A stretch of 44,685 nt of DNA. Origin: a marine bacterium B5-7 (GTDB taxonomy: Bacteria > Pseudomonadota > Gammaproteobacteria > Arenicellales > CAJQKF01). This document shows positions 21,961-27,070 of the stretch, piece by piece. The position numbers were made by a program, and so were the translations under genes. The DNA is taken from assembly GCA_021604525.1 (NCBI GenBank), contig BQJD01000031.1:1-44685 (forward strand). The letters are read 5' to 3'. Numbering within the stretch: the stretch's first letter is position 1; every line of letters begins with the position of its first letter. The notes beneath the pieces are model-generated. The model made no database searches and was not told the DNA's origin. It was given only the letters and a program-made list of their open reading frames with translations.

Positions 21961-22659
21961 TCAAAGCAGCTTGAAGATGGACTTTGGAATGATGCCGGCG
22001 AAATCGATAAAGTTGACGGCGAAGTGCGCCAGCATGATTGCGGGCAATGAGCCAGTGGCAAGATAAGCAGTCATAAAGACTGAGCCGATGATGGTTGTGA
22101 TCAGGACAGCATTCAAGCCGAGACTCCAGTGGATCAGACCGAATGCGATTGATGACACGACAACGATCACAAGCCGGTTTGTGGTGTAGCGGCGGAGAAA
22201 TGCCAGCATGTATCCGCGAAATACCAGCTCCTCGACAATTCCCACCAGCAGCAGTCCGAAGGTCAGGTCGATCCAGTCCCAGACCGGGCTACCAATCGGC
22301 GGCATCCCACCCAGTGCCTGGTAGCCAGGCCAAGTGGATGTCACTGCATAGCCGTTCTGGTCGATCAGCGTGCCAACCAGGGTGACAATAAGAAACGTAC
22401 CCAGAAACTGGATTGTCCCGGGATACGTGAGACCGAGATCGCGGGGGTGCAGCCTGCCGCGAGTCAGCAGCCAGGCGATGATGGCAAGTGGTAACAGTTT
22501 GACGCCCGTATAGTCGATAAGCAGCCACAGGCGCCAGTCGTCGACGAATATGTTGGCGAAATCGTTAGCGTAAAACGGGAAGACCAGCACCAGCATCATG
22601 GGCAGGCTCAAGGCCCATTGATCCTTGGGCGACATTACCTCAGGTGCGTGGGTTATCAT
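21961..22659 (-). CDS. CPBP-family intramembrane metalloprotease
   Basis: A 232-residue membrane protein with about seven hydrophobic segments. It has the three CPBP (CAAX/Abi) motifs: EELVFRGY with the EExxxR catalytic pair, FGLIHW, and HFAVNFIDF. Family members cleave prenylated or other membrane substrates, or confer self-immunity to bacteriocins. No bacteriocin gene is near. It lies downstream of ileS on the same strand with a 39-bp gap and could be read through from it. Confidence 0.85.
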   Translation of the reverse strand: MITHAPEVMSPKDQWALSLPMMLVLVFPFYANDFANIFVDDWRLWLLIDYTGVKLLPLAIIAWLLTRGRLHPRDLGLTYPGTIQFLGTFLIVTLVGTLIDQNGYAVTSTWPGYQALGGMPPIGSPVWDWIDLTFGLLLVGIVEELVFRGYMLAFLRRYTTNRLVIVVVSSIAFGLIHWSLGLNAVLITTIIGSVFMTAYLATGSLPAIMLAHFAVNFIDFAGIIPKSIFKLL

Positions 22660-22698: not shown

Positions 22699-25600
22699 TC
22701 ATATCTTCGATAGTCGAATCACCCAGCGATCCTCATCCAGGCTGCGCTCACTCGTGAACTCGCCAATAAACTCATCTCCACCCCAATCGCTTGCCAGCGT
22801 TTCGCTCATCAGGTAATCGCGATAGGCGTCGAGTGCCGCCACGACTCGTTCGCTGCCCTCGATGCGTAGAACAATACGATCAGAGATTTCAAGGCCAGCC
22901 TGTTTACGAGCATCCTGCACCGTGCGCACCAACTCGCGGGCGACGCCTTCAACCAACAGGTCTTCGCTTAGGGTGGTGTCGAGTGCGACCAGATAACCTG
23001 ACTCCTCGGCGCACGCGTAACCTTCGGCGGACTCAGTTTCGACCAGGACGTCCGCAGGTGCAAAGGAAATTTCCTGATCGCCTATGGTCAACATATACGT
23101 CTCATCGTTGGCATGGGCACGCACCAGTGCGGTGCTATCGCATTCGGCCAGGGCGGTTCGAATGGCAGGCACCAGCTTGCCGTACCGTTTGCCGAGTTCC
23201 GGCAACTTGGGTTTGATGCGGTAGTTGACCAGCTCCGCATCGGGTGCCAGAAATTCAATATTCTTGATATTCAATTCGTCGCGAATCTGTTCGCCATGCC
23301 GTTCAACTGCTGCGCGGGCGCGGCCATCGGGAACCCGAACCAGCAGTCGCGACAGGGGCTGGCGCACCCGGACTTTACTCGCTTCACGCGCCGAGCGACC
23401 AAGGCTGACGATGTTCTGCACGATATCGAACCCAAAGATGAGTTCGCTATCGATTTGGCTGGTATCGGCCTTGGGCCAGTCGGTCATGTGTACAGAAGGC
23501 AGTGTGTCGTCGCGCTGCGTGATGACCAGATTCTGATACACGGCCTCGGACAGGAACGGCATGAATGGCGCCATCAACCGATGAACGCCATCGAGACATT
23601 CGTATAACGTTAAATACGCAGCCTGTTTATCGTTGCCGGCTTCGGCCTTCCAGAAGCGACGTCGATTACGACGGATATACCAGTTGGATAGTTGATCCAC
23701 GAACGATTCGATTGCACTACCGGCGGCTTGGGCATCATAGCGTTCCATCGCGTCGGTGGTATCGACAATGGTCTGATTCAGCAGGCTCAACGCCCAGCGA
23801 TCTATCTCGGCACGTTCATTAATTGGAACATCCATCGACAAGTCAATTTTGTCGAGCTCTGCATACATGACGAAGAACGCGTAAGTGTTCCAGAACGTGT
23901 TGACGAATGATGCGGCGACATCGGCAACGATGTTGACCGAGATGCGTTTTTGAACCTCCGGTGCAAGTCGTGCAAGAAAATACCAGCGCAGCGGATCGGC
24001 GCCGATGGTATCGAATACGTCGTAGGGATTGACGATATTGCCCTTGGACTTCGACATCTTCTTGCCTTCCTCGTCAACGATGTGTGACAGGCATACGCAG
24101 TTGCGATAGGCAACACTGTCGGAGACCAGCGTGGCGATTGCATGCAGGGTGTAGAACCAGCCGCGCGTCTGGTCGATGGCCTCGCAGATGTAGTCCGCCG
24201 GGAAGTGCGATTCAAATGTTTCCTTGTTCTCGAAAGGATAATGCCACTGGGCATACGACATGGCGCCGGAGTCAAACCAGCAGTCGATGACTTCCTGCAC
24301 CCGGGTCCAGGTTTTGCCGTCAGCTTCAAACGTCACGTCATCCACTGCCGGTCGATGCAGATCGAGATCACCCAACGCGCGGCCGGTGAGTTCTTCAAGT
24401 TCCTGAAGCGAGCCGATACAACGATAATTGCCTTCACCGTCTGTCCATACCGGCAGCGGTGTGCCCCAAAAGCGCTCGCGTGATAGCGCCCAGTCGATGT
24501 TGTTTTCCAGCCAGTTACCGAAACGGCCGTCGCGAATGGTTTGCGGTACCCAGTTGATGGTGCGGTTGAGCTCGACCATACGCTCGGCGACGTCGGTGGT
24601 GCGGATGTACCAGGCATTTTTGGCGTAGTAGATCAGCGGGTCGCCGGTGCGCCAACCGAACGGATAGTTATGTAGATAGCGTTCACTCTTGAACAACAAT
24701 CCGCGATCTTTCAGCAGGTCGATGAGGATCGGATCGGCGTCCTTGAAAAATTTACCCGCAACCGGCGTGACCTCGGCTTTGAAGTAACCGTCCAGGCCGA
24801 CGCCGTGGACAACCGGCAGACCGTTGCGCTGACCGAGTTCAAGATCGTCAACACCATAGGCGGGCGCAATATGAACAATGCCGGTCCCATCTTCGGTGCT
24901 GACAAAGTCTGCAGTGAGTACCCGGCAGATATCGCCTTCAGCTTCGAGATAGTCAAACAACCGCTGATAACGCAGACCAACCAGGTCCGATCCCTTGACC
25001 GTGCGGATGACTCGCGCCTGTCGTTCGCCGAGTACGGCTTCTTGCAGGGTGGCGGCGACAATCAGGGTTTCGCCTTCGCTATCGAGGTAGACGTAATCGA
25101 TATTTTCACCGACTGCCAATCCCATATTGGATGGCAGTGTCCAGGGCGTAGTGGTCCATACAAGGAACGACGTGTTGTCGTCATCGAGAAGACGAAAACG
25201 TACTGTGACCGACGGGTCCTCAACCTCCTTGTACCCTTGTGCGACTTCATGGGAAGACAATGTCGCACCGATACGTGGATCGTAAGGGACGACCTTGTAG
25301 CCCTGGTAGATCAGGCCCTTGTCCCAGATAACCTTGAGAAGGTTCCACACCGATTCGATGTAGTTGTTATCGAGCGTGTAGTAGGCTTCTTCCATGTTGA
25401 CCCAAAAGCCCATGCGCTCGGTCATTTTTTCCCAGTCGCCGATATAACGCATCACCGACTCTCGACATCGACGGTTAAATTCTGCTACGCCAATTTTTTC
25501 TTCAATCTCTTTTTTATCGAAGATGCCGAGTTCTTTCTCGATCTCATGCTCGACCGGCAACCCGTGGGTATCCCAACCGGCCTTGCGCGGCACATGGTAG

Positions 25601-25833
25601 CCCTGCATCGTTTTGAAACGAGGGTAGATATCCTTGAAGCTGCGCGCCAGCACATGATGAATGCCGGGTTTGCCATTGGCGGTGGGTGGGCCTTCGTTCC
25701 AGGTGTAAATTTGTCGGCCGGCACTCATCTCGAGGGTACGCTTGAAAATATCCTCATCGCGCCAGAAGTCGAGGATCTTCTGTTCGAGCCCGGGTCCGTT
25801 GTAGCGTCCACTGACCGGTTGAAATGCCATCAT
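22699..25833 (-). CDS. ileS: Isoleucyl-tRNA synthetase, type 2 (IleS2), with rearranged GIHH signature
   Basis: A 1044-residue class I synthetase that charges tRNA-Ile. The first signature reads GPPTANGKPGIHHVLAR, with GIHH at 57-60 where most synthetases have HIGH. The first and third positions are thus swapped. The CP1 editing domain keeps TTTPWTLPSN (about 210-245) and GTGIVHIAPAYGVDD (about 310-335), which remove mischarged valine. KMSKS lies at 592-596. Length and GPPTANG mark the eukaryote-like type 2 clade, which resists mupirocin; the GXHH variant is reported to give hyper-resistance. M1 or M2 may start; GGAG precedes both. A T-box riboswitch controls it. It does not sit beside lspA as proteobacterial ileS usually does, which supports transfer. 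Whether a type 1 ileS exists elsewhere is unknown. Confidence 0.97.
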   Translation of the reverse strand: MMAFQPVSGRYNGPGLEQKILDFWRDEDIFKRTLEMSAGRQIYTWNEGPPTANGKPGIHHVLARSFKDIYPRFKTMQGYHVPRKAGWDTHGLPVEHEIEKELGIFDKKEIEEKIGVAEFNRRCRESVMRYIGDWEKMTERMGFWVNMEEAYYTLDNNYIESVWNLLKVIWDKGLIYQGYKVVPYDPRIGATLSSHEVAQGYKEVEDPSVTVRFRLLDDDNTSFLVWTTTPWTLPSNMGLAVGENIDYVYLDSEGETLIVAATLQEAVLGERQARVIRTVKGSDLVGLRYQRLFDYLEAEGDICRVLTADFVSTEDGTGIVHIAPAYGVDDLELGQRNGLPVVHGVGLDGYFKAEVTPVAGKFFKDADPILIDLLKDRGLLFKSERYLHNYPFGWRTGDPLIYYAKNAWYIRTTDVAERMVELNRTINWVPQTIRDGRFGNWLENNIDWALSRERFWGTPLPVWTDGEGNYRCIGSLQELEELTGRALGDLDLHRPAVDDVTFEADGKTWTRVQEVIDCWFDSGAMSYAQWHYPFENKETFESHFPADYICEAIDQTRGWFYTLHAIATLVSDSVAYRNCVCLSHIVDEEGKKMSKSKGNIVNPYDVFDTIGADPLRWYFLARLAPEVQKRISVNIVADVAASFVNTFWNTYAFFVMYAELDKIDLSMDVPINERAEIDRWALSLLNQTIVDTTDAMERYDAQAAGSAIESFVDQLSNWYIRRNRRRFWKAEAGNDKQAAYLTLYECLDGVHRLMAPFMPFLSEAVYQNLVITQRDDTLPSVHMTDWPKADTSQIDSELIFGFDIVQNIVSLGRSAREASKVRVRQPLSRLLVRVPDGRARAAVERHGEQIRDELNIKNIEFLAPDAELVNYRIKPKLPELGKRYGKLVPAIRTALAECDSTALVRAHANDETYMLTIGDQEISFAPADVLVETESAEGYACAEESGYLVALDTTLSEDLLVEGVARELVRTVQDARKQAGLEISDRIVLRIEGSERVVAALDAYRDYLMSETLASDWGGDEFIGEFTSERSLDEDRWVIRLSKI

Positions 25834-25862
25834 GTCACTCCGAGTTGAGCAAATCCGGGCGC

Positions 25863-25902
25863 AAAAAAACCCCGGAATCGCCGTTAAGGCTGATTCCCGG
25901 GG
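25863..25902 (-). terminator. Intrinsic terminator of the ileS T-box
   Basis: CCCCGGGAATC (25902-25892) pairs with GATTCCGGGG (25879-25870), with one bulged G, and is followed directly by seven T residues (25869-25863). GGCGA...TCGCC around the T-box provides a competing antiterminator helix whose 3' arm overlaps the foot of this stem. The ileS ATG follows 29 nt later. Confidence 0.93.
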
Positions 25903-26180
25903 CGAGATTCATTCGCGGTACCACCCGGTTTCGCCACCTCCTCGCGGATTGCGGCCTTGGTAAGTGACGCACCAGATCGGCGTTATCACTTTAATCCGAT
26001 ATCGAGGATCAAACGTTCGAATCTACTGATTCGCCCGGGATAATTCTTGATGGGCGAATGTTCGGTCGAATGCTCCAGGGTGATTTTCATCGACTGCCGG
26101 CCGGGGCTTGCACCATCCCCCGGTCGCTCGAATCGCGGCAGGACTCGATTACTCTTCCCTATCAACGCTTTGAATTCAAT
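25863..26180 (-). ncRNA. T-box riboswitch, isoleucine specifier (AUC), upstream of ileS
   Basis: Read on the minus strand, the leader has all parts of a transcriptional T-box. Stem I opens with GGAAGAGTAATCGA (S-turn AGTA) near 26159. CTGCCG and CCGGGG pair with CCCCGG and CGGCAG around the apical GATGGTGCAAGCC. The specifier loop TGAAAATCACCCTGGAG has the codon AUC at 26084-26082, flanked by GAA and A as usual. AGTAGA...GAACG near 26027 fits the stem II/IIA region. The T-box GGGTGGTACCGCG lies at 25926-25914, and its UGGU bulge would pair with the ACCA end of uncharged tRNA-Ile. A strong terminator follows. Uncharged tRNA-Ile should favour antitermination and raise IleS. Confidence 0.95.
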
Positions 26181-26186
26181 GCGCGG

Positions 26187-26214
26187 ATTTTACTCGCATC
26201 GTGGAAGGATTCAA
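26187..26214 (-). promoter_or_regulatory. Sigma-70-like promoter for the T-box/ileS transcript
   Basis: On the minus strand TTGAAT (26214-26209) and TAAAAT (26192-26187) are separated by 16 bp. They predict a start near 26180, about 20 nt before stem I of the T-box. The placement relative to the riboswitch supports the call. Confidence 0.6.
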
Positions 26215-26344: not shown

Positions 26345-27070
26345 ATGCCGTTACCATTACTCGTTGCCATTCAGTTTCTCACTACGCTACCCGTTAACGT
26401 AAGGAGCATGCCGTCGCCTCAGGATACCGGTAGCTCGATCAACTGGTACGGCGTGGTCGGGCTTATGCTCGGCCTGATATTACTGGTTTCGGGTTACGTT
26501 CTGGATCACCTTTTTGCCCCCATGGTGACAGCCGCGATATTGCTGGCGCTGTGGGTCATTCTGACAGGCGCCCTTCATCTTGATGGTCTTGGCGATTGCG
26601 CCGACGGACTGCTGGCGGACTCACGCACCCGAGCTCTCGAGATAATGCGCGATCCCCGTGCCGGAGCTTTTTCTATAGTTGCAATCACTCTCGTGCTGGT
26701 GGTCAAGTTTGCAGCACTCATCGTGCTGATCGAATACGGTGAGTGGAGTGTTATCGTCGCTGCGCCAATACTTGGCAGGGTAGCAGTCCAGGCGTTGTTC
26801 CTGACCACTCCCTATGTACGCGAAAACGGATTGGCAAGCACGCTTGTCGCACATATGAATCGTGACCGCGTAAAATTTGCCTTATTGGTTGCGATATTGT
26901 TTTCATCGCTGCTGCTATGGAACGGTGTGTGGTGGGTATTGCCTTCTCTTGTCATTATGTTTGCAGGCATTCGGCATCTCATGATGAAAAAATTACTGGG
27001 TACTACAGGCGACAGCGCCGGGGCGCTGGTTGAAATTATCGAAGTCACAGTGCTATTGCTGGCTGTATAA
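26345..27070 (+). CDS. cobS: Adenosylcobinamide-GDP ribazoletransferase CobS
   Basis: A 241-residue inner-membrane enzyme joining adenosylcobinamide-GDP to alpha-ribazole, the last main step of cobalamin nucleotide-loop assembly. Family hallmarks are QFLTTLPV near the N-terminus, TGALHLDGLGDCADGL (acidic metal-binding motif) and EIMRDPRAGAFSI, with six to seven hydrophobic spans. AAGGA lies about 11 nt upstream. No cobU/cobT neighbour and no cobalamin riboswitch was found before it, so it is isolated from the rest of the pathway. Confidence 0.93.
   Translation: MPLPLLVAIQFLTTLPVNVRSMPSPQDTGSSINWYGVVGLMLGLILLVSGYVLDHLFAPMVTAAILLALWVILTGALHLDGLGDCADGLLADSRTRALEIMRDPRAGAFSIVAITLVLVVKFAALIVLIEYGEWSVIVAAPILGRVAVQALFLTTPYVRENGLASTLVAHMNRDRVKFALLVAILFSSLLLWNGVWWVLPSLVIMFAGIRHLMMKKLLGTTGDSAGALVEIIEVTVLLLAV

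Follow-up and report, generated by a model that had tools for sequence, protein, structure and literature searches.

A long-Stem-I T-box leader before ileS in two orders of Gammaproteobacteria and its probable origin by transfer

In the available portions of open-access surveys, T-boxes are listed for Bacillota, Actinobacteria, Chloroflexota, Deinococcus-Thermus and a few Deltaproteobacteria, and the question thus arises how such a leader came to stand before ileS in a gammaproteobacterium and whether it may still act there. The locus lies in the window, by which we mean the whole analysed stretch of 44,685 nucleotides from the marine bacterium B5-7 (contig BQJD01000031.1 of assembly GCA_021604525.1). 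For this window a sequence-only reading had described a T-box leader on the minus strand of a probable gammaproteobacterium, and had proposed that leader and gene moved together and still work. Our comparison of sequences indicates that the leader is very probably a long-Stem-I T-box attenuating the transcription of ileS, and that IleS2 and its T-box were probably transferred from a Chloroflexota-like source, with the native ileS1 lost.

Regarding the host, its proteobacterial identity was checked, and it is gammaproteobacterial both by the rpoB tree and by the names of its close relatives. Its own rpoB falls among the rows of its order (30 rows, support 100), and the sister of E. coli is G238 (support 100), a genome of the same class as the host, from which it follows that the class is Gammaproteobacteria; among the 57 rows of the tree no other proteobacterial class is named, and Chloroflexota contribute one row, an outgroup on a long branch. 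The records of close relatives bear the names Gammaproteobacteria, Arenicellales and Woeseiaceae, and one record of family f172 the name Chromatiales.

Anatomy of the leader and its match to the host tRNA

The features of the locus are as follows.

26345..27070, plus strand: divergent cobS (PF02654, 162.8 bits); matches also adjoin the leader in G001 and G002
26187..26214, minus strand: sigma-70-like promoter TTGAAT-16-TAAAAT (-35 TTGAAT 26214-26209, -10 TAAAAT 26192-26187)
25895..26174, minus strand: T-box riboswitch (cmscan RF00230, model positions 1-219 of 219, thus the whole model; 84.2 bits, E 1.6e-18)
26072..26168, minus strand: Stem I with specifier loop (AGTA 26153-26150, GAA 26088-26086), from alignment and covariation
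26114-26107, minus strand: Stem I apical loop GGTGCAAG, from cmscan alignment and position check
26082..26084, minus strand: specifier codon ATC (AUC, Ile), which pairs with anticodon GAU
26022..26065, minus strand: Stem II region with GAA...AGTA (S-turn type) motif, from cmscan alignment
25897..25928, minus strand: antiterminator with T-box bulge UGGU (T-box sequence GGGTGGTACCGCG at 25926-25914)
25863..25902, minus strand: intrinsic terminator (arms 25902-25892 and 25879-25870, T7 25869-25863)
25838..25842, minus strand: probable ribosome binding site CGGAG, read from the sequence
22699..25833, minus strand: ileS of IleRS2 type, 1044 aa, signature GIHH (TIGR00392, 944.9 bits against a cut-off of 621.4, and tree)
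21961..22659, minus strand: gene of a CPBP-type intramembrane protease (PF02517, 73.4 bits), downstream of ileS; a match also adjoins ileS of G001

Promoter, loop E elements, specifier, T-box, terminator and T7 all lie where the sequence-only reading had put them, and the covariance model RF00230 is matched strongly and over its whole length, though under the Rfam gathering score. A scan of the window at that gathering threshold (93 bits) accordingly reports no T-box, as the window scores below it; the threshold is a curation cut-off and not a feature of the RNA, and a scan by E-value is needed here. The leaders of G003 (same family, 99.4 bits) and G007 (same order, 115.8 bits) score over it. 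The Stem IIA/B pseudoknot and the Stem III purine string were aligned by cmscan with inserts and with lower posterior in places. In the host's own genome of 4.41 Mb one T-box was found, namely that of the window. When 14 control genomes were searched in this way, five gave a T-box (Bacillus, Lactococcus, Corynebacterium, Thermus and Deinobacterium), and E. coli and Caulobacter gave none.

The promoter, with 9 of 12 matches, is weak taken alone, since the scan gives one site against 0.5 expected in shuffles; a similar hexamer pair with an equal 16-nt spacer is seen by eye at the same place in the leaders of G001, G002 and G003, which belong to the same family. A simple automatic terminator scan of the leader region reported no site, and it was folding that revealed the terminator hairpin (-19.6 kcal/mol). 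The antiterminator stretch 25895-25935 folds in isolation at -12.0 kcal/mol. As the 5' arm of the terminator overlaps the 3' arm of the antiterminator (25902-25892 against 25904-25897), the two structures are mutually exclusive.

The specifier was further compared with the tRNA of the host. A host tRNA-Ile has the anticodon GAU, the discriminator A and an encoded CCA, and the pairing of the AUC specifier with it, when checked, held; the specifier thus agrees both with this tRNA and with the downstream gene ileS. Because of the discriminator A and the encoded CCA, the UGGU bulge is complementary to the ACCA end of tRNA-Ile. From these parts and this match, together with the conservation, covariation and link to ileS described below, we infer the following regulation. 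RNA polymerase would start about 345 nt upstream of ileS, and Stem I would recognise tRNA-Ile(GAU) through the specifier and the apical loop. If the tRNA is uncharged, its ACCA end would pair with the UGGU bulge and hold the antiterminator, such that transcription proceeds into ileS; with charged tRNA, the leader would instead fold into the stronger terminator (CCCCGGGAATC...GATTCCGGGG-T7).

Conservation and spread of the leader

Many genomes in two gammaproteobacterial orders share a T-box before ileS. A T-box was found in 23 of 60 relatives (own genome counted), in 43 of the 109 genomes that represent the window's order and in 78 of 296 sampled genomes of a second order (77 in family f172, which holds Woeseiaceae, and one in f198), as well as in 2 of 369 genomes class-wide and 2 of 398 phylum-wide, the own genome included in both and the other phylum-wide match scoring 26.1 bits; samples of more than 40 genomes were searched with stricter filters, and absences in them are lower bounds. 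The weak match in G998 (26.1 bits) was set aside, as no ileS2 lies in the stretch taken. Each T-box-positive genome of the two orders carries exactly one T-box.

The loci fetched were the 64 better-scoring of 121 matches (43 from the window's order and 78 from the second), and all 64 contain ileS2. Within the window's order, 41 of the 43 genomes with a T-box have ileS2 on the strand and contig of the T-box, 48 to 700 nt after it; at the G488 locus the first codons of ileS are visible, and in G504 T-box and ileS2 stand on different contigs. The distance of 700 nt is that of G007 (L253:1-860, minus strand), where a glutathione-S-transferase-like gene, named by eye, intervenes. A T-box is present in 43 of the 60 genomes of this order with IleS2 and in none of the 49 without it. 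Thirteen upstream regions from 12 of the 17 T-box-less IleS2 genomes gave no T-box even at E up to 5, G496 being counted twice and two positive-control regions matching in the same search. G496 has two IleS2 copies on different contigs (L240, L252), neither with an upstream T-box.

All 64 fetched leaders have an AUC specifier (that of L182 read by eye); in the bulge, 62 of them have UGGU and the other 2 UGGC. The two with UGGC are leaders of family f6 (L086, L089), and their specifier remains AUC. Stem I was aligned for 59 of the 64, leaving out L084, L087, L094 and L173 with long inserts and L182, which was missed by the pattern. In this alignment 95.1% of cells are paired against 82.7% when shuffled, and the covariation score is 0.477 against 0.227, with 0 of 500 shuffles as high and slid structures reaching at most 0.154; the covariation is counted over sequences rather than over events, and part of it may stem from a few changes between the orders. 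Two-sided change occurs in 15 of 17 named pairs, with columns 7 and 112, for instance, being A-U in 31 leaders and G-C in 28, and RNAalifold, given no structure, finds double change in 18 of 20 pairs. The covariation of Stem I and the fixed AUC are signs of kept function in the sequences, not proof of it. As for the proposal that the leader still works, the covariation supports it at the level of sequence, which is distinct from an experimental result.

The downstream half of the leader is more variable. By a lenient test a terminator is present in 16 of 17 leaders of the window's order outside family f3, in 30 of 31 of the second order and in 4 of 16 of f3, and by a strict reading of the folds in 14 of 17, 21 of 31 and 1 of 16, respectively. 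The lenient match in the f3 leader L092 is plainly spurious. As most f3 leaders have no terminator (in the strict reading L090-L093, L095-L097, L099, L100, L172, L174, L175 and L177-L179), the mechanism is not uniform. In six folded leaders of genus g4, which belongs to f3, GCGCGC, which forms the antiterminator's 5' strand, is paired with a similar stretch directly before the start codon, and these single-sequence folds, to which covariation does not contribute, suggest that the g4 leaders may control translation; in three leaders folded from other f3 genera no such GCGCGC pairing at the start codon was seen by eye.

The IleS2 enzyme and the origin of gene and leader

With the query used, the IleRS of the window is the only full one found in its genome, other matches having 23-31% identity. 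A designation as MupA was rejected, as the MupA model gives 856.2 bits, far below its own cut-off of 1900. In the window's IleS, and in 39 of 39 gammaproteobacterial IleS2 rows, GIHH replaces HIGH; a swap of HXGH for G/AXHH has been associated with mupirocin hyper-resistance, according to the available part of PMC10485003. The enzyme also carries QWHYPFE and stands apart from IleRS1 in the tree, HYPFE being described in the part of PMC4861432 at hand as a signature of the eukaryote-like IleRS group. That mupirocin resistance drove the replacement of ileS is speculation, echoing a remark in the same part of that paper.

As to the native gene, the 109 genomes of the window's order comprise, by table reading, 60 with IleS2, 42 with only an IleS1-like match (about 30%), none with both and 7 with neither, and the IleS2 proteins of the 60 are 55-100% identical over matched stretches. 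Where both ribF and lspA were found in IleS2 genomes, they are joined directly (12 of 12), and the order ribF-ileS1-lspA is present in the three IleS1 genomes examined (G012, G011, G514) and in E. coli; in a thirteenth IleS2 genome, G014, lspA is present and ribF was not seen in the stretch taken. The ribF-lspA junction implies that the native ileS1 is cleanly missing where the foreign gene is present.

The 39 gammaproteobacterial IleS2 rows form a single clade with support 100 in both IleS trees, of which the first was built from 110 of 130 proteins, after removal of L361 and of 19 rows that were partial or near-duplicate, and the mixture-model tree from 65 of those 110, chosen by hand. This clade joins mainly Chloroflexota rows, together with one cyanobacterial and one Hyphomonadaceae row, by branches of support 92 and 90. 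The T-box core motif, with at most 2 mismatches, lies upstream of ileS in 17 of 22 Chloroflexota tree rows, one of the five rows without it offering just 202 upstream bases. Most simply, gene and leader would have been transferred together from a Chloroflexota-like source, and the native ileS1 would have been lost; the joint move put forward in the sequence-only reading fits the IleS trees and the loss of ileS1, and stays a deduction from them. The presence of the T-box requires 5 changes on the gammaproteobacterial IleS2 clade, which are most simply repeated losses, and the leader would have been lost or remodelled in some branches after its arrival. A single clade for the window's order is not rejected by the AU test (p 0.583). 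A later transfer between the two orders, read from the first IleS tree, was dropped, since the mixture-model tree and the AU test do not back a direction.

Several rows lie beside this clade. On a contig titled Leptolyngbyaceae cyanobacterium (L045:2671-2939) a T-box stands before ileS2 with 95.1 bits, over the gathering score, and its IleS is sister to that of a Hyphomonadaceae MAG without the T-box motif. L053 (Oceanococcus sp.) and L081 (Hyphomonadaceae) have IleS2 without the motif outside the gammaproteobacterial clade, and represent either further acquisitions or misbinned contigs.

Three other accounts of the locus have to be weighed. The contig might contaminate the bin and stem from a bacterium in which T-boxes are usual, and the bin does contain one foreign piece, a second rpoB fragment (C90:3274-4587, L346). 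We consider this extremely improbable, as the IleS of the window falls in the trees with those of its genus and family, and G001 likewise has cobS and CPBP genes on either side of leader and ileS. Furthermore, no second full IleRS was found in the genome, ribF and lspA have no ileS1 between them, and many assemblies contain the leader, one of them the single-contig G566 (f172, 4,059,891 bases). Contamination of the window's contig, a suspicion prompted by the second rpoB fragment, was rejected, since IleS and its neighbours belong to the host's own genus. The foreign fragment on C90 itself groups with G643 of f172. It is also very improbable that the leader is a relic, which arrived with ileS, no longer regulates and is kept only as promoter and untranslated region. 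Such a relic would agree with the T-box being undetected in 17 of 60 IleS2 genomes of the order, and hence dispensable, with at least 5 state changes on the IleS tree and with the moderate RF00230 score of the window, but Stem I is preserved by compensatory changes across 59 leaders, AUC is invariant in all 64, and outside f3 the terminator stems, although varying in sequence, remain paired with the T-run mostly kept.

The remaining account, which we hold to be unlikely though less so than a relic, is that IleS2 and the T-box are ancient in Gammaproteobacteria and vertically inherited, IleS1 having replaced them in other lines. The single 39-row clade spans two orders, and the rows of the window's order can be grouped without loss of fit, both as vertical inheritance would have it; the relatives' ileS1, however, sits in the E. 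coli-like ribF-ileS1-lspA place, which suggests that it is the older state in them, the distribution of IleS2 over the window's order is patchy (60 against 42, with none having both, among the 109), and the T-box occurs in just 2 of the 369 class-wide genomes, the host's own included. Returning to a transfer from a Chloroflexota-like source, a broader scenario has a chance somewhat short of even: that lineages of two orders swapped their native IleRS for a foreign, mupirocin-hyper-resistant type which brought its T-box along, an essential gene of Gram-negative bacteria thereby coming under a control of Gram-positive style, and that f3 rebuilt the T-box from termination to the hiding of the ribosome binding site. 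The locus would offer a clean natural case in which a regulatory RNA seems to have crossed phyla together with its gene, with loss or remodelling afterwards. In addition, T-box-directed drugs and mupirocin would be expected to affect these bacteria differently from other Gammaproteobacteria.

Relation to known T-box systems

The kind of regulator is known and its mechanism is standard; what is new relative to the surveys, as far as their available portions go, is the lineage, and that the T-box is part of the replacement of an essential gene. In open-licence literature, considered by titles and the beginnings of abstracts, no ileS T-box in Gammaproteobacteria is mentioned, and databases or other papers may list one. 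With the transcriptional T-boxes of Bacillota the leader shares Stem I, specifier, Stem II, the T-box bulge and the choice between terminator and antiterminator; unlike them, it belongs to a Gram-negative host with no other T-box found in its genome.

Geobacter and Pelobacter are of the deltaproteobacterial lineage. Their leuA T-box, described in the part of PMC2494555 available, is likewise from what were then Proteobacteria, but concerns another gene and another lineage. For isolated Gammaproteobacteria, a T-box-like element before hisS, possibly gained by transfer, was suggested in 2010 (PMC2965389, in its accessible part); that attenuator differs in its gene, was proposed from likeness of sequence, and was not presented there as a lineage-wide trait. 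The translational T-boxes of Actinobacteria (Nocardia farcinica, PMC7583486, in the part at hand) also control ileS, and the f3 leaders may act on translation too, whereas the leader of the window combines a terminator with a long Stem I.

The ileS T-boxes of Chloroflexota, represented here by Anaerolineae and in the available part of PMC2494555 by Dehalococcoides, share with the window both the RNA family and the type of gene. The genomes of 40 of 80 named loci were searched for T-boxes, the scan of the first loci covering 18 of 20 (L034 and L030 left out), and 16 of the 17 Chloroflexota genomes searched carry 2 to 21 T-boxes and one none, whereas the gammaproteobacterial positives have one each.
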